Shown: positions 25,275 to 31,319 of the stretch, in pieces | How the letters are laid out: each line of letters begins with the position of its first letter | How positions within the stretch are numbered: position 1 is the stretch's first letter | Virus record (IMG/VR): IMGVR_UViG_3300034108_000989 | Span: 1 to 31,319 of that record | Reading direction: 5' to 3' (one strand) | DNA: 31,319 nt | Source of the DNA: a virus | Notes under the pieces: generated by a model | Database searches by the model: none | Told to the model about the DNA's origin: nothing | Seen by the model: only the letters and a program-made list of their open reading frames with translations | Position numbers and translations under genes: made by a program

Positions 25275-27701
25275 TTACAAAGTGAACGCGTCCATACCTA
25301 TATTTTCTGCTTGAAAATCTTTCGGCTGTCCGTTTGTTTCACGCTGTTTTATCATTTCTGAGTTTTGTGTCGCCTGCTCTCGCAAACGCTCATCCTTACG
25401 GTCTTCGGTTTCTTTTATCTTTTCTGCTTGACCTGAATTGACAATCATTTGAAGTTCGTTCTTTCTGTTGTATTCGGTTTCAATTGTTATTCTATCTTGT
25501 TCACCTCTTGCTTTTTCTTTTTCAATTTCGCCTTGAGAAATCATTTGTTGAACTGCTTGTTTTAACTGAGCTTCCATAGAGAATGTTTTTTGTTTCTCTT
25601 GCTCAACTGCAATGCCGGCTCTTTGATTTGCATCTGCTTGATAATCGAATTCCTCTTTTTTTCTTTGAGATAAAAGTTTCTCTCTTTTTTTTCTAAGAAT
25701 TGAAAGGTAATCAGTCGCATGACTAATATTTGCAATACGCAAAATTCTATTTTTATCTTCAGTAGTAATCGCTTGATTTTGTACTTCAATCGATAAATCT
25801 TGTTCCAATTTCAATTTTTCTTCATCATCTGGCATTAATTCCAATGAAATAGCGAAATCGTGGTTGTGTAAATCCTTAATTATATCTAATTGAATAACGG
25901 CTTCTGAACCAATTTTTCTAGCAAAATCATCTCGTAAATCTGAGTATCTTAATAAATCAGCAGTTCTATAAACAATAGCTTCCGCCATTCTTTCAGTACA
26001 ATCGTTTGCTGCTTCTAAAATATGACGAGTCGCGGTGTTGGAGTTTAATGCTGCAAGTTTCTGTAATCCTACTAACGAATCTTTATCCGGAGTAGATGCG
26101 TCACTTGCTTTATTGAGTCCGATTACTTCACGCATCATTTCAATAAGATTGTTTCTTTCTTCTCTTAATGCTTGAAGTTTTACAAGTCCGCCTCTGCCGG
26201 TTACTAATTCGCGAATTGGTTGACTAGCTTGATTGTAGTCTCCTGCTTGATTGTACATAGTTGCTAAAACCGAACCTGTCTGAAAGAACATATCCAATAA
26301 GTCTTGTGGTCCTAAAATACCGCCTTCCCCTAAATCAATCTCGGCTAATGCAGCAGGGTCAATAGAGAATCCGTCTGGCATTATTCTTTGAATAATTTGT
26401 TCTGTTTTAAGTTCAATAACATTTAATTTGTCTTCAATAGGCATCATTCTCGCTACCAATGAATCGTAATAATCTTGCATTTTATTAGGAGCATAACCGA
26501 TGTATTGAGAAACTACACGTTGTTTATTTGATTCAGGACGTGCCATATTATTTGAAACTTCCCATTTCAACATAATATCAGTTCCTAAAACTCGAACTCC
26601 TTCAAATTCAATTTCTTCAACTTTTGAAACTCGTTTGAAATCTAAACTTTTCACATTCGATTCGTCAAAGTTTTCATCCGCTTTAGATAATACTTTTTCA
26701 CCTGTTGCTTTGGTTTTGATTTTTTTGGCTCTTTCACGAGTTGTTTTATAGGTAAAGTACAAAAGTTCGGCATGACCTTTTATAATTTCATCTTGCGGTC
26801 TATTGTGGTAAGTCCACCATTGTTGCCCGGCATTTTGAATTTGTTCTACTAAATCAGGGTGTTCATTTACCCATTGGTAGTTAACCAAAATATCTGAAAC
26901 TGCCATGGCTTTAATCTCGCCATGATAATTACAGTCTAAAAAGAATGGGTCGTCGGTATAGGATTGAATTTTGTATTCAGGGTCAACCCAATCAATTACA
27001 ATTCCACGGTCCGGAATGAATGTGTGTTTTTCCCATGATACTCCAAGTACTACTTGGTCAATGATTTTTCTTCGTTCTACTTTTTGCTTGTATCGATTTT
27101 CTTTGAATACTGCCGAAATAGCTAATTCCTCAGCCTTTTCTATCGGTTGCTTGTATTCTAAATCGATTTTTAAGTTTAGTTCTTCTTCACTTTCTGGAAT
27201 TTCGTCTATTGGAACTGTGCCAATATCAATGCCTAAATTTTCTTTTGCTGAAATGATAGTGTCTTTTGCTAACATATCAGTTTGCAAATTCTTTTTGAAA
27301 GCGAGTTTGTTGTCTAATGAAAGTGGATCAACTGCAATTGCTTTGATTTGATAATCTCTACCGGTCATTCCATTTACAATTACGTCGGTAAGTTTTGGAA
27401 TAATCGTAATGGGTTTTTCGGTAAGGTTTAAGAATTTTGTGGTTCCATTAGTACCCATTTTGTCATAAAACTTCTTTAATGATTGAAGTCCTTTAGCATA
27501 GATACGTCTTTCATACATTTGTTGTTTTTGGTCGTAATATCTGCAATTATCACCTCCTGTTTTATAGAACCACTCGCTTACTACCGACTCCGAGAACTGA
27601 AAACCCCAGTCTACCGATTCTTTTTTAGAGAATGGGTCGGTAGCTCTTGGGAACGCGGTGTTCTTTGTTACTTCAAGTTTATAAGCCTTTTTATCTTCCA
27701 T
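25275..27701 (-). CDS. Portal protein, 808 aa
   Basis: 808 residues beginning MEDKKAYKLEVTK. A longer frame reaches an ATG at 27773, but those extra codons contain the promoter -7 element at 27721-27728 and read as hydrophobic, Lys/Asn/Ile-rich non-protein-like sequence, so 27701 is the likely start. Features of podoviral portals: an N-terminal helical/beta domain (WGFQFSESVVSEWFYKTG), a wing region with the DWVDPEYKIQSYTDDPFFLD motif, the stem/clip region, a crown-like helical part, and a long charged coiled coil at about 630-790 rich in Lys, Glu and Gln. The length is that of crAss-like portals. It forms the dodecameric DNA channel at one capsid vertex and docks the terminase. Assignment rests on motif style and gene order. 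Confidence 0.8.
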   Translation of the reverse strand: MEDKKAYKLEVTKNTAFPRATDPFSKKESVDWGFQFSESVVSEWFYKTGGDNCRYYDQKQQMYERRIYAKGLQSLKKFYDKMGTNGTTKFLNLTEKPITIIPKLTDVIVNGMTGRDYQIKAIAVDPLSLDNKLAFKKNLQTDMLAKDTIISAKENLGIDIGTVPIDEIPESEEELNLKIDLEYKQPIEKAEELAISAVFKENRYKQKVERRKIIDQVVLGVSWEKHTFIPDRGIVIDWVDPEYKIQSYTDDPFFLDCNYHGEIKAMAVSDILVNYQWVNEHPDLVEQIQNAGQQWWTYHNRPQDEIIKGHAELLYFTYKTTRERAKKIKTKATGEKVLSKADENFDESNVKSLDFKRVSKVEEIEFEGVRVLGTDIMLKWEVSNNMARPESNKQRVVSQYIGYAPNKMQDYYDSLVARMMPIEDKLNVIELKTEQIIQRIMPDGFSIDPAALAEIDLGEGGILGPQDLLDMFFQTGSVLATMYNQAGDYNQASQPIRELVTGRGGLVKLQALREERNNLIEMMREVIGLNKASDASTPDKDSLVGLQKLAALNSNTATRHILEAANDCTERMAEAIVYRTADLLRYSDLRDDFARKIGSEAVIQLDIIKDLHNHDFAISLELMPDDEEKLKLEQDLSIEVQNQAITTEDKNRILRIANISHATDYLSILRKKREKLLSQRKKEEFDYQADANQRAGIAVEQEKQKTFSMEAQLKQAVQQMISQGEIEKEKARGEQDRITIETEYNRKNELQMIVNSGQAEKIKETEDRKDERLREQATQNSEMIKQRETNGQPKDFQAENIGMDAFTL

Positions 27702-27728: not shown

Positions 27729-27757
27729 TATAATTTTTTTATTCAATTTATAATTTT

Positions 27758-27765
27758 TATATTTG
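27758..27765 (+). promoter_or_regulatory. -7 promoter element TATATTTG for the homing endonuclease and its leader RNA
   Basis: Plus-strand TATATTTG fits TAnnTTTG and is divergent from the portal element 30 bases away. Initiation a few bases downstream would give a leader of about 100 bases that starts at the first hairpin of the proposed structured RNA. No -33 TTG is seen, so the call is tentative. Confidence 0.45.
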
Positions 27766-27766
27766 C

Positions 27767-27860
27767 AGAGCAATCTCTCATTTGCTTTACGATACTGCTA
27801 TTAATTTAGCGACGACGAATCCTAAGTAGTGTATGAGAGCCTACTTGGGATTTTGTTCGT
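27767..27860 (+). ncRNA. Candidate structured leader RNA with kissing hairpin loops
   Basis: Hairpin 1: bases 27767-27773 pair with 27782-27788 (7 bp, one G-U) around an 8-base loop TCTCTCAT. A weak 4-bp hairpin GCTA/TAGC follows (27797-27810). Hairpin 2: AATCCTAAGTAG (27818-27829) pairs with CTACTTGGGATT (27841-27852), 12 bp with one G-U, extendable by ACGA/TCGT (27812-27815 with 27857-27860) and a C-G/G-U pair. Its 11-base loop contains ATGAGAG (27833-27839), perfectly complementary to CTCTCAT (27775-27781) in loop 1. The RNA would end 11 bases before the endonuclease ATG. I cannot assign it to a known class. Hairpin 2 plus the T-rich stretch after it could also act as a weak terminator or attenuator. 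Confidence 0.5.
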
Positions 27861-27871
27861 TTTAGATATTT

Positions 27872-28555
27872 ATGAATACGGAAATAGAATCTTGGAAAGA
27901 CATTCCTAGTCTTGAAGGACATTATCAAGCAAGTGATTTTGGAAATATTCGTTCTTTTAAAAAGAATAAAATAACATTATTAAGTCAATATGTTTCTAAA
28001 AAAAAATATTGTTATGTTGTTATTTACATGGACAAGAAGCCAAAAACAACAACTGTGCATCAGTTAGTAGCAATGGCTTTTTATGGTCATGTTCCTTGTG
28101 GAATGGAGTTGGTGGTAGAACATAAAAATCAAATAAGAAACGATAATCGTTTGGTTAATCTTGAAATAATTACTCAAAGAAAAAATACAGATAAGAAACA
28201 CTTAACAAGTACAAGCAAATATGTTGGTGTTTGTTGGAAGAAAAATTCTAAAAAATGGATTTCTAGCATTTGGTATAATAGAAAAAAGATTTTTTTGGGT
28301 CGTTTTGATTCAGAACTTGAAGCTTCTGAATACTATCAAAACGCATTGAAAGCTATTGAGAATGGAACCGAAATTGTAGTAAAAAAAGCAAATTTTAGTT
28401 CAATGTACAAAGGGGTTTCTTGGCATAGTAAAATTAATAAATGGCAATCAAGAATATATATTAACAAATCCATAAAGCATTTAGGGTATTACCAAACAGA
28501 GTTAGAGGCTTATTTAGTTGTTGAAAAATACAAAAAAGAAAACAACATTATTTAG
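27872..28555 (+). CDS. Free-standing homing endonuclease, NUMOD4-HNH-AP2-AP2
   Basis: 227 residues. NUMOD4 DNA-binding module near 7-55 (SWKDIPSLEGHYQASDFGNI), an HNH_3-type nuclease core near 60-103 (VHQLVAMAFYG, VVEHKNQIRND, RLVNLEIIT) with H84 and N96 as likely catalytic or structural residues, and two AP2-like DNA-binding repeats near 117-161 (SKYVGVCWKKNSKKWISSIW) and 178-222 (SMYKGVSWHSKINKWQSRIY). Such enzymes cut a target site so that their own gene is copied into it. It is the only plus-strand gene in the structural region and its TAG overlaps the terminase TAA. No intron or intein surrounds it, so it is a free-standing type. Two AP2 repeats are plainly visible; one or two is usual. 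Confidence 0.92.
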   Translation: MNTEIESWKDIPSLEGHYQASDFGNIRSFKKNKITLLSQYVSKKKYCYVVIYMDKKPKTTTVHQLVAMAFYGHVPCGMELVVEHKNQIRNDNRLVNLEIITQRKNTDKKHLTSTSKYVGVCWKKNSKKWISSIWYNRKKIFLGRFDSELEASEYYQNALKAIENGTEIVVKKANFSSMYKGVSWHSKINKWQSRIYINKSIKHLGYYQTELEAYLVVEKYKKENNII

Positions 28556-31197
28556 TACGTCTTGAACTTCAAACTCAATTTTGGAGCTTCAATTTGTGGT
28601 TTGTATTTGTGACGGTTTACAGCTAGAATTGCAAAACCTGAACTAATAGAAGCATCTCGCTTAGTTCTATCGTTAGGGTCAAATTTAAGCCAGTCTTCTA
28701 GTGTTCTGTTGAAATACATATTTCCAACAACCCCTTCTTCTCTAATTGGTGTTTCTCCTTCATCGGACTTATATTCTCCTACGTATTTATCAACCCACTC
28801 TTGTATTGCAATCCAGTGATAATTTTTAATATCTTCCGAGTTATTCGGGATTCCACCGTAATTTTTCTCATCTAATGAAAGTCTATTTTGGTCTTTGTCA
28901 AATCGCGTTATTACAAATCCTCTATAACCTCTAACTTTTAAATGTCTAAGCAATAATTTTTTATTATTCTCAACTAATATAGGCATTGAGTAAAACAAGC
29001 AAGCCATCAATACATCTTCAAAGAATATATCGGCAATTTTAGGTCGTGCAATGTATTCTAAGAAAAAGAAATTACTAGAAACGTTGCCTAAATTATTACC
29101 AGTCAATCCATGAATAGAGCCTTTTGAACCTTTATTGTGTTCAATTCCATTTTCAGTTAATGCTAATTTAGAATCAACAACGTCGTCAGAATCATAAGGG
29201 TCAGTAGCCAACGCTCCAATATGTTCGTTTACCGGACATTTTGTTAATTGACCGAAAATATTTTTTTTAACGAACTTGTTTCCGAAATCTTCAGGTGGCA
29301 GCCAACTAATTAAAAATCGTCCATTATCTTCAGGTCTCCAAACAACAGTTGTGTCTTTCAATCCATCTTTCCAATAAAAGTTCCCACGCATTAATTGAGC
29401 TTGAATCTCAGGATTTTTATTGTATTTTATTTGACAATTTATTTTTTCAACATCAAACAATTGAGATTTTAATTCATCTCTAAAAGCATCGTCAATTGTA
29501 ATCGGGTCAAGTCTTCTTGCGTTATTGTAAACTTTTGAACCCATTTTTTTAGCAGAAGCAAATTCGTTCATTAAAAATTGTAATGATCCGATTGTTTTTG
29601 TTTCTCCATAAGTATTTTTGAAACTTTGTCCATGTTCTACTATTTCGTGACATACACCATACTTGTCGGTGTAGTCTTCCATATTCTTGTGTGCTGGTAA
29701 AAAGAATGAGTATAAGCCGGTTGTAGTTCTTCCATTTTCGTTTCTTTTGGTAATGTCGGAGCCGTAATACATTTGCATAAATTCTCGGCCACCTTTATCA
29801 AGTGGATTCAATGTGGAACCCATAAAACATTTTCCAACAATTCGGCCACCGGTAATCATAGTTGGTTTTACGTTACTCCAATGGTCAATTATATTATGTG
29901 GTCTTTCCCATTTTCCTGATTCATCATTCAAATATCTGATAAGTTTTTTGGAGTCATAAGCCAATGTAGCAGTAGCCATCCAATCGACTTTTGTATTCAA
30001 ATAATCATCGGTTGATGTTTCTCTAAGTTTTTTATTTGCTTTTGAACCGTCCGATGGCTTCCCAAAAACCATTTCTGATTTATTTTCAATTTTATTCTGA
30101 ACAACTGGTATAAAATAGAACGGTAAATTTCTAATTACATATTGATATTTTAAAAATGCTTCTTCGGCATCGCCTCCTGTTTTTGATGTAATACCCATAA
30201 GAGCGTTACACATAGAAGTTGAATCGTTTACTAAGTGGTCAATAATTTCTTCGGTGTACCCTGTCCGACGTCCTTTTACAAACAATTCTCCAACACATCT
30301 TTTATCTACAATACAGGCGAGTGTAAAATAGTACATATTCATTTGAGCAATACGGAAATCCTTAGACGTTCCCGTATCTAGCATTTTATTATGCTGTAAT
30401 CCCATATAATGAGCCGGAGTTAACCAAGTAGGTGTTCCGTTATTCATAAACCAAACCCCTTCTCTACGTCTTCTGAACTCTTCCATTATGTAGTCTGCGT
30501 ACATATTTTCGTTTTCGGGAGTAAGCCCTGGTGGCGGAGTTGCTCTTTTCCAATATTGTTCTTCAATAGGTAAATTTGAAAATAATATTTGCTTTTTATC
30601 TTTCGGAGGAACCGGCAGTTGAATTTTAAGATTGTCTAATACTATGATTTCGCCTTTTGTGCCTTTGGGGTCAATCATTATAGCATCCTCTTCTTTATTA
30701 TACCATTCTTTATAATAATCGGATTCAGGATAAAATTCTTGATTACTAAACCGTTCTGGGTAGCCTCTCATGAACTCACGAGATTTAAAGTCAATGTTTC
30801 CTGATTTTACTTGATTTCGAAGTTCAATTAATCCTGAATTTATTTCGTTTATTGCTCGAAATATTAACGGCTTTGACTTTATTACAGCACTATATTTTTC
30901 AGCATCAAGATCTTCAAAGTTTGTTTTTTTAACTAATGCACTTCGAAGTAATTTTATTGAAGCCTCCCCTGCTTTTATAAGTTTGTTTGCGTATGTTGTT
31001 ATTTTTTCATGCGAAGGAGCATTTGGACTTTGTTGCCACAACATAATTAGGTCTTTAATCGAAGAAAATGATTCAAGCCTAGATTTCATTAACGCTGAAA
31101 GTTTTTCGTCATTGACATCTTTAATATCAATACTCAACACCATTCCTTGAATAGAGTCAATAATTGCCTTCTCAATATCTTTTGATAAACCTTCCAT
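28552..31197 (-). CDS. Terminase large subunit, 881 aa
   Basis: 881 residues: the motor that cuts concatemeric DNA and pumps it through the portal. Residues 1-240 are an N-terminal extension with helical content. The ATPase has a deviant Walker A-like GRRTGYT (309-315), Walker B LIRYLNDES (D425, E426) and a coupling motif GSTLN (460-464). The RNase H-like nuclease shows ATDPYDSDD (D666 first acid), VENNKK (E743) and RDA (D848). The length is greater than the usual 450-700 aa, matching long terminases of crAss-like and related Bacteroidota phages. The ATG is 19 bases after a -7 element. No small subunit is visible in the window. Confidence 0.88.
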   Translation of the reverse strand: MEGLSKDIEKAIIDSIQGMVLSIDIKDVNDEKLSALMKSRLESFSSIKDLIMLWQQSPNAPSHEKITTYANKLIKAGEASIKLLRSALVKKTNFEDLDAEKYSAVIKSKPLIFRAINEINSGLIELRNQVKSGNIDFKSREFMRGYPERFSNQEFYPESDYYKEWYNKEEDAIMIDPKGTKGEIIVLDNLKIQLPVPPKDKKQILFSNLPIEEQYWKRATPPPGLTPENENMYADYIMEEFRRRREGVWFMNNGTPTWLTPAHYMGLQHNKMLDTGTSKDFRIAQMNMYYFTLACIVDKRCVGELFVKGRRTGYTEEIIDHLVNDSTSMCNALMGITSKTGGDAEEAFLKYQYVIRNLPFYFIPVVQNKIENKSEMVFGKPSDGSKANKKLRETSTDDYLNTKVDWMATATLAYDSKKLIRYLNDESGKWERPHNIIDHWSNVKPTMITGGRIVGKCFMGSTLNPLDKGGREFMQMYYGSDITKRNENGRTTTGLYSFFLPAHKNMEDYTDKYGVCHEIVEHGQSFKNTYGETKTIGSLQFLMNEFASAKKMGSKVYNNARRLDPITIDDAFRDELKSQLFDVEKINCQIKYNKNPEIQAQLMRGNFYWKDGLKDTTVVWRPEDNGRFLISWLPPEDFGNKFVKKNIFGQLTKCPVNEHIGALATDPYDSDDVVDSKLALTENGIEHNKGSKGSIHGLTGNNLGNVSSNFFFLEYIARPKIADIFFEDVLMACLFYSMPILVENNKKLLLRHLKVRGYRGFVITRFDKDQNRLSLDEKNYGGIPNNSEDIKNYHWIAIQEWVDKYVGEYKSDEGETPIREEGVVGNMYFNRTLEDWLKFDPNDRTKRDASISSGFAILAVNRHKYKPQIEAPKLSLKFKTY

Positions 31198-31216: not shown

Positions 31217-31224
31217 CAAAGATA
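31217..31224 (-). promoter_or_regulatory. -7 promoter element TATCTTTG for the terminase gene
   Basis: The minus strand reads TATATCTTTGTTTC. The last G is 19 bases before the terminase ATG, and the element lies directly after the terminator of the upstream gene. Confidence 0.6.
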
Positions 31225-31229
31225 TAAAA

Positions 31230-31252
31230 AAAGCCTCTAATTAAGAGGCTTT
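31230..31252 (-). terminator. Intrinsic terminator of the gene upstream of terminase
   Basis: AAAGCCTCT (31230-31238) pairs with AGAGGCTTT (31244-31252), 9 bp around an AATTA loop. On the minus strand the stem runs into a stretch of Ts immediately before the terminase -7 element. On the plus strand the downstream T-run (ATTTTTC) is weaker. Confidence 0.85.
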
Positions 31253-31273
31253 AATTTTTCAGTAAACTTTAGA

Positions 31274-31319
31274 CTAGAATGTTCCGCCAAAGTTAATTGT
31301 CAATGCTGCGTTTAAAGCG
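31274..31319 (-). CDS. C-terminal end of an unknown minus-strand gene
   Basis: A minus-strand frame enters from the right edge and stops with TAG at 31274-31276. The 14 visible residues are ALNAALTINFGGTF. Alternating polar and apolar residues with a terminal Phe resemble the last strand of an outer-membrane beta-barrel, but 14 residues are too few to call. The terminator at 31230-31252, 21 bases further on, supports a real gene end here. Confidence 0.4.
   Translation of the reverse strand, partial: ALNAALTINFGGTF

Follow-up and report, generated by a model that had tools for sequence, protein, structure and literature searches.

The homing endonuclease gene (HEG) that separates the portal and terminase genes of this virus is preceded by a short stretch in which two hairpins with mutually complementary loops had been predicted. 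The question is whether these form a genuine RNA element and, if so, whether it is an RNA associated with the HEG, a regulator or part of the mobile unit. The sequence analysed (the window, 31,319 nucleotides) is a 31-kb IMG/VR virus fragment with matches to PHROGs 6681 (terminase) and 6547 (portal); by terminase, its nearest named relatives are Flavobacterium elemo and Cellulophaga phages. The features of the locus are collected in Table 1.

Table 1. Features of the HEG locus in the window, with the support for each
Feature	Position	Strand	Support or remark
Portal gene	25275-27701	-	Flanks the HEG
Inserted unit (promoter, leader RNA and HEG), approximate	27745-28552		Empty site in L004 and L005
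-7 promoter element, Bacteroidetes-type, TATATTTG	27758-27765	+	Sequence
Hairpin 1 (7 bp, loop of 8 nt), close to the transcription start	27767-27788	+	Aligns with hairpin 1 of L010 and L012
Kissing loop 1, CTCTCAT	27775-27781	+	CCACTAC instead in L010 and L012
Small linker hairpin (three-hairpin subtype)	27796-27811	+	Same position in L010 and L012
Hairpin 2, 13 bp, terminator-like	27817-27853	+	Folding
Kissing loop 2, ATGAGAG	27833-27839	+	GTAGTGG instead in L010 and L012
U-rich stretch 3' of hairpin 2	27851-27863	+	Weaker than in most relatives
NUMOD4-HNH_3-AP2 homing endonuclease gene (HEG)	27872-28555	+	Pfam, PHROGs
Terminase gene	28552-31197	-	Flanks the HEG

Both hairpins of the original prediction were confirmed within positions 27767-27853, as was the perfect 7-nt complementarity of their apical loops. 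Hairpin 1 pairs AGAGCAA (27767-27773) with TTGCTTT (27782-27788) around the loop TCTCTCAT, and hairpin 2 pairs GAATCCTAAGTAG (27817-27829) with CTACTTGGGATTT (27841-27853) around the loop TGTATGAGAGC, with the predicted G-U pairing present among its 13 base pairs. The promoter element and the HEG start codon also lie where they had been placed: the former ends 1 nt before hairpin 1, and the first ATG falls 22 nt past the last G-C pair of hairpin 2. The folding energy of the leader has a z-score of -4.6 (none of 200 shuffles folded equally well), and hairpin 2 on its own reaches -17.3 kcal/mol. When the leader was shuffled with its dinucleotides preserved, a 7-nt kissing pair on stems of at least 4 and 6 bp arose in eight of 5000 sequences, and on stems of at least 6 and 10 bp in none of 5000. 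Counted over the 10 nt that follow the last G-C pair, the U-run (TTTTGTTCGTTTT) contains six T, where the 25 leaders described below have a median of eight, and a strict terminator scan of the window leader returned no site at hairpin 2. A comparison with Rfam, which had been proposed as a check, gave no match for the window leader, which remains uncatalogued. A group I intron was rejected, as the Rfam intron models have no match in the window and the HEG is intergenic and on the opposite strand to its neighbours; a HEARO/OMEGA RNA was rejected likewise, there being no Rfam match and the partner protein being of the NUMOD4-HNH_3-AP2 rather than the IscB type.

The suggestion that the RNA is part of a mobile unit is borne out by two near-identical phages, L004 and L005, in which the flanking genes are 98-100% and 95-98% identical to those of the window. 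Their terminase-portal spacer is about 80 nt long and lacks the HEG, the promoter and the RNA alike, so the inserted unit includes the promoter and the leader, and the RNA moves with the HEG. The portal leader at the empty site of L004 (1978-1988) does contain CCTACTTGG, which recurs unchanged as 9 nt within the 3' arm of the window's hairpin 2; the rough chance expectation for such an identity is about 0.1. Elsewhere in the window, on the minus strand at 31224-31295, a promoter-like element and a plain terminator lie immediately upstream of the terminase gene. This region was matched by the R3 covariance model (see below) with E = 0.11 and no loop pairing was seen in it; it is possibly the attenuated start of the structural operon.

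Homologous leaders, for which a search upstream of other HEGs had been suggested, were found before HEGs at other sites in two related phages, L010 (4820-4938 on the minus strand) and L012 (1500-1632 on the plus strand). The local alignment of the window leader with that of L010 scores 53 (best shuffle 43) and with that of L012 scores 37 (best shuffle 32), and neither score was reached in 300 shuffles. The two loops are exchanged jointly between these sequences, CTCTCAT/ATGAGAG in the window versus CCACTAC/GTAGTGG in L010 and L012, and a second HEG in L012 has a further leader with the loops GCATCTCAC/GTGAGATGC. The window, L010 and one L012 copy have a continuous hairpin 2 stem and the linker hairpin, without the purine-rich internal loop found in many other copies, and form a subtype. 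The R3 model, built from 14 sequences, did not match the window copy at 27767-27860 at E values up to 5. The window therefore represents a divergent subtype, and it is assigned to the family by its architecture and its homology to L010 and L012. In L012, the HEG frame at 1633-2658 continues, uninterrupted by a stop codon, into the C-terminal half of a protein like that encoded at L010 3620-4231; this is a frame-keeping HEG insertion.

Additional leaders of this architecture came from HEG searches in IMG/VR, phages and genomes. We defined the family by a pair of hairpins whose apical loops are perfectly complementary over 6 nt or more, a -7 element a few nucleotides 5' of hairpin 1 and an ATG in the same sense soon after hairpin 2. 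In the window, the loops are complementary, the -7 element and the ATG are so placed, and the homologues carry compensatory loop changes. MAFFT alignments of the whole set put the hairpins in the wrong places, and covariance models were therefore grown from one sequence with its structure: R1, seeded from L035 alone, found L032, L042, L037 and L012, and R2 (five sequences) and R3 extended the family further. The full set comprised 25 leaders, of which a script parsed 19 and six were annotated by hand; the latter were L032, L035 and L042, which had gone unparsed, and L113, L266 and L280, in which the stems or loop pair had been mis-set. The HEG-based searches also returned many HEGs without a kissing-loop leader (for example L029, L031, L033, L036 and L111). 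A search of IMG/VR with the stem pattern CCTAAGTAG-N-CTACTTGGG was discarded, as its matches were unrelated and the second hairpin was missing. In bacterial genomes, under stricter search filters, there was one match among 397 from Flavobacteriaceae and none among 395 from Bacteroidota, although with those filters the empty result proves little; one kissing-loop leader lies in a Bacteroidales MAG (L187). Given this near-absence from bacterial genomes, the RNA looks like a phage element, mostly of Flavobacteriia.

Covariation of the stems and of the loop-loop helix, named in the original prediction as a test, is present. The 25 leaders carry 23 distinct loop pairs, in which cognate loops are complementary over 6-10 nt and non-cognate loops over a mean of 3.4 nt; the mean loop match observed over the 23 distinct codes was not reached in any of 100000 permutations. 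In the covariance-model alignment A12, whose fitting took account of the stems but left out the loop-loop helix, pairing is found in 92.4% of cells, compared with 35-43% once the partner strand is slid, and changes on both sides are seen in 24 of the 28 pairs, including four of the eight loop-loop pairs. Many leaders had been picked by eye through their loops, most of the 25 being retained for matching loops, and the loops were therefore checked in R3 matches outside the training set. Only the 11 such matches in phage sequences at E < 1e-3 are free of that selection, and all 11 have complementary loops: 11b, P2559S, P12002L, P12002S, FCL-2, FCV-1, Gundel (two copies), Harreka, Freya (the pair GGTGGAA/TTCCACC, identified by eye) and L015. 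As P12002L and P12002S are near-identical, ten of these are independent. Between 1e-3 and 0.05 the loops are complementary in L315, L331, L334 and L335 (L331 and L335 by eye) and not in L300, L306, L307, L311, L314, L333 and L336; the weak matches are mainly plain terminators with non-complementary loops (for example L300, L306 and L314). Chance structure in AT-rich DNA can produce short two-hairpin patterns, as the eight shuffles noted above illustrate, but it is contradicted by the covariation and by this blind validation, and we regard it as having virtually no prospect of being correct. The kissing-loop RNA is almost certainly real and functional.

The RNA, as delimited by sequence comparison, is about 90 nt long and runs from hairpin 1, at about the start point of the promoter, to hairpin 2 and its U-rich run. 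The -7 element reads TTTG (in a few leaders TTTA) and precedes hairpin 1 by a median of 5 nt, and the predicted loop-loop duplexes range from -7 to -18 kcal/mol. A U-rich run follows hairpin 2 in all 25, with a median of eight and a minimum of six T in the 10 nt past the hairpin, and the first ATG comes a median of 14 nt (range 7-27 nt) after it. Hairpin 2 is split in many copies into an outer and an inner stem by a purine-rich internal loop, which comes in two sorts. One is UGAA/GGAU-like (L032, L035, L042, L278, L272, L034 and P12002L), which we take to be a tandem G-A arrangement; the other is GAGUA/CGAAA-like (L026, L128, P2559S and FCL-2), with an AAGUA/GAAA variant in L114 and 11b, and presumably resembles the bulged-G 'loop E' module.

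Several genomes or records hold two copies with differing loop codes (FCV-1, Gundel, Freya, phi19:3, L012, L113, L128 and L029), and such a code private to each copy of a genome suggests that the RNA acts in cis. A free-standing small RNA, whose downstream gene would be reached by leak only, would have the same layout of promoter, structured RNA of about 90 nt and terminator. However, an ATG lies within 7-27 nt in every leader, and the loops are private, each matching its own partner, with no common target apparent; we consider such an RNA distinctly improbable. One near-identical leader, with the loops CGGGCAGG/CCTGCCCG, heads three unrelated genes, namely a NUMOD4 HEG (L114), an ORF of the 11b replication region (L294) and another HNH-like nuclease gene (L015), and looks like a portable cassette.

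NUMOD4/HNH-type HEGs lie downstream of 16 of the 25 leaders. A further one, that of L266, precedes a NUMOD4 remnant fused to another protein (L266:1610-2452), with the remnant at the N-terminus; this looks like a decayed HEG that has become joined to a phage gene. In cultured flavobacterial phages (11b, FCL-2, FCV-1, P2559S, P12002L/S, Harreka, Freya, Gundel and phi19:3) the architecture mostly heads the replication-initiation module. The leader precedes a replication initiation gene in L272, a replication protein gene in P12002L, the replication-type gp54 (PHROG 428) in FCL-2 and replication-type genes at Gundel 16777 and Freya 36634. In P2559S and FCV-1 a small ORF and then a DnaD/replication-initiation match follow, and in 11b and Harreka small ORFs and then a gene with a weak primosomal match, which the gene at phi19:3 4009 resembles (by eye); in L278, small ORFs are followed by a gene without a PHROG match. 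Other contexts are an antirepressor gene with an adjoining HNH gene (Gundel 33891), an endonuclease-VII-like gene (L315), another HNH-like gene (L015, by eye), an MBL-fold-like gene (Freya 32534, by eye) and a YopX-like gene (phi19:3 23510, by eye), each a single case.

The idea of a HEG-associated RNA thus holds insofar as the element forms the leader of HEGs, but an association of the HEARO kind is not supported. With the same RNA standing before replication, antirepressor and other genes, we regard it as a general flavobacterial-phage leader of which HEGs also carry copies; among the three options originally offered, that of a regulator is the best supported. An RNA partner or guide of the endonuclease, comparable to HEARO/OMEGA RNA with IscB, would likewise adjoin an HNH nuclease gene and move with the nuclease. 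This reading was rejected, and we rate it as extremely improbable, as the RNA also heads non-nuclease genes, the kissing sequence is missing from the empty site of L004, the nuclease has DNA-binding-type domains of its own (NUMOD4 and AP2) and there is no Rfam match. The position of most resident copies at replication modules could also reflect a replication element, either an origin primer or an origin control, and kissing RNAs do act at the origin of ColE1-type plasmids. Copies before HEG, antirepressor and other genes would be unexpected at origins, however, as would two copies at distant sites in one genome, as found in some, and we judge this explanation very unlikely.

A hairpin with a U-run in all 25 leaders and an ATG about 14 nt further on make attenuation the likeliest function, the layout of promoter, structured RNA of about 90 nt, hairpin with U-run and same-sense ATG being that of a transcription attenuator. 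We give about an even chance to the kissing-loop leader being, as its sequence suggests, a cis-acting attenuator in which a terminator is coupled to a 5' hairpin. RNA polymerase would make hairpin 1 first and then the apical loop of hairpin 2, which would dock on hairpin 1 ahead of synthesis of the 3' arm. The docked complex would set how often hairpin 2 terminates transcription, and with it the amount of downstream gene product, with the purine-rich internal loop (UGA/GGA- or AGUA/GAA-like) contributing to this setting in many copies. Resident copies would control mostly the phage replication-initiation module, and the leader would probably keep in check both viral replication genes and mobile genes for DNA-cutting enzymes. 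A HEG unit that carries it and is inserted against the direction of its neighbouring genes would gain its own promoter and a damped, perhaps timed, expression. Hairpin 2 could instead terminate constitutively, and the role of the kissing helix could lie in RNA stability or translation.

Two rivals to attenuation concern what the folded leader acts upon. In processive antitermination of the put type, it would stay on RNA polymerase and enable the enzyme to pass, in long early operons, both the leader's own terminator and those further on. Phage operons, those for replication among them, do begin with the leader, much as putL lies just downstream of PL in HK022, and the accessible text on putRNA describes an RNA of about 70 nt with two stem-loops that acts without a phage protein (PMC9378689). 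However, the present RNA has as its conserved end a terminator-like hairpin whose U-run immediately precedes the gene, single-gene HEG units offer nothing downstream to antiterminate, and a loop-loop helix goes unmentioned for putRNA in that accessible text; we consider this mode of action unlikely. In the other rival, the docked 5' structure would shield the 5' end or block ribosomes from the start codon. Hairpins in T4 HEG leaders do hide the ribosome site (PMC2988022), and some other HEG leaders have a terminator-hairpin loop complementary to ATG-adjacent sequence, but among true family members neither hairpin includes the ATG or the 7-27 nt that precede it, and the U-run present in 25 of 25 is unneeded for translation control. 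Control of translation or mRNA stability seems to us decidedly unlikely.

A second kind of HEG leader was seen upstream of HNH genes in L003, L027, L184, L112, L129 and L262. Here a terminator-like hairpin has a loop whose complement, 7-10 nt long, lies downstream of the hairpin near the ATG, compared with non-cognate matches of at most 6; L003 and L262 have two target copies.

Literature searches, in which subscription literature was incompletely covered, found such a leader nowhere described. On sequence grounds, the kissing-loop leaders appear to be a new family of cis-acting phage leader RNA. Beyond attenuation itself, we tentatively propose, as a reading somewhat more apt to be wrong than right, a new class of phage RNA switch in which hairpin 1 captures the terminator loop in cis through private codes. 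Such a switch would be a standard control of replication modules, repeatedly picked up by HEGs as a promoter-plus-switch cassette, and its internal loop may bind a ligand, a phage protein or RNA polymerase. This apparently undescribed RNA family shows unusually strong covariation of its loop-loop helix and occurs in cultivable phages (FCL-2, FCV-1, 11b, Gundel and others). The family offers a handle on replication-gene control in flavobacterial phages and on the safe, self-contained expression of free-standing homing endonucleases, and its natural, mutually distinct loop pairs combined with a terminator could be of use in RNA circuit design.

Among known systems, attenuators of the pT181/pIP501 type work through an antisense RNA that kisses in trans, with a terminator before the plasmid replication gene. 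The kissing-loop leaders share the loop-loop pairing and the terminator directly before a replication-initiator gene, but have both loops on one RNA. Kissing loops, pseudoknots and overlapping terminators are also building blocks of the riboswitch and leader families in Rfam 15, to which, however, neither the window nor 29 loci with this or related leaders had a match at gathering score, a tRNA excepted. HK022 putRNA resembles them as a short phage RNA with two stem-loops at an early operon, but, as far as the accessible text describes it, its 3' half lacks a terminator hairpin and U-run, it acts on distant terminators and it belongs to lambdoid phages (PMC9378689). In phage T4, a hairpin in the leaders of the HEGs I-TevI, segB and mobE hides the ribosome site on early transcripts, and a single hairpin lies upstream of the ribosome site in seg43 of Aeromonas phage 25 (PMC2988022). 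These too are structured RNAs immediately 5' of a phage HEG that limit or time its expression, as is predicted here, but the kissing-loop leaders come with a dedicated promoter, join two hairpins by a loop-loop helix, carry a U-run and precede non-HEG genes as well. As the arrangement differs from those of the T4 leaders, putRNA and the plasmid attenuators, we file it as a new leader-RNA family.
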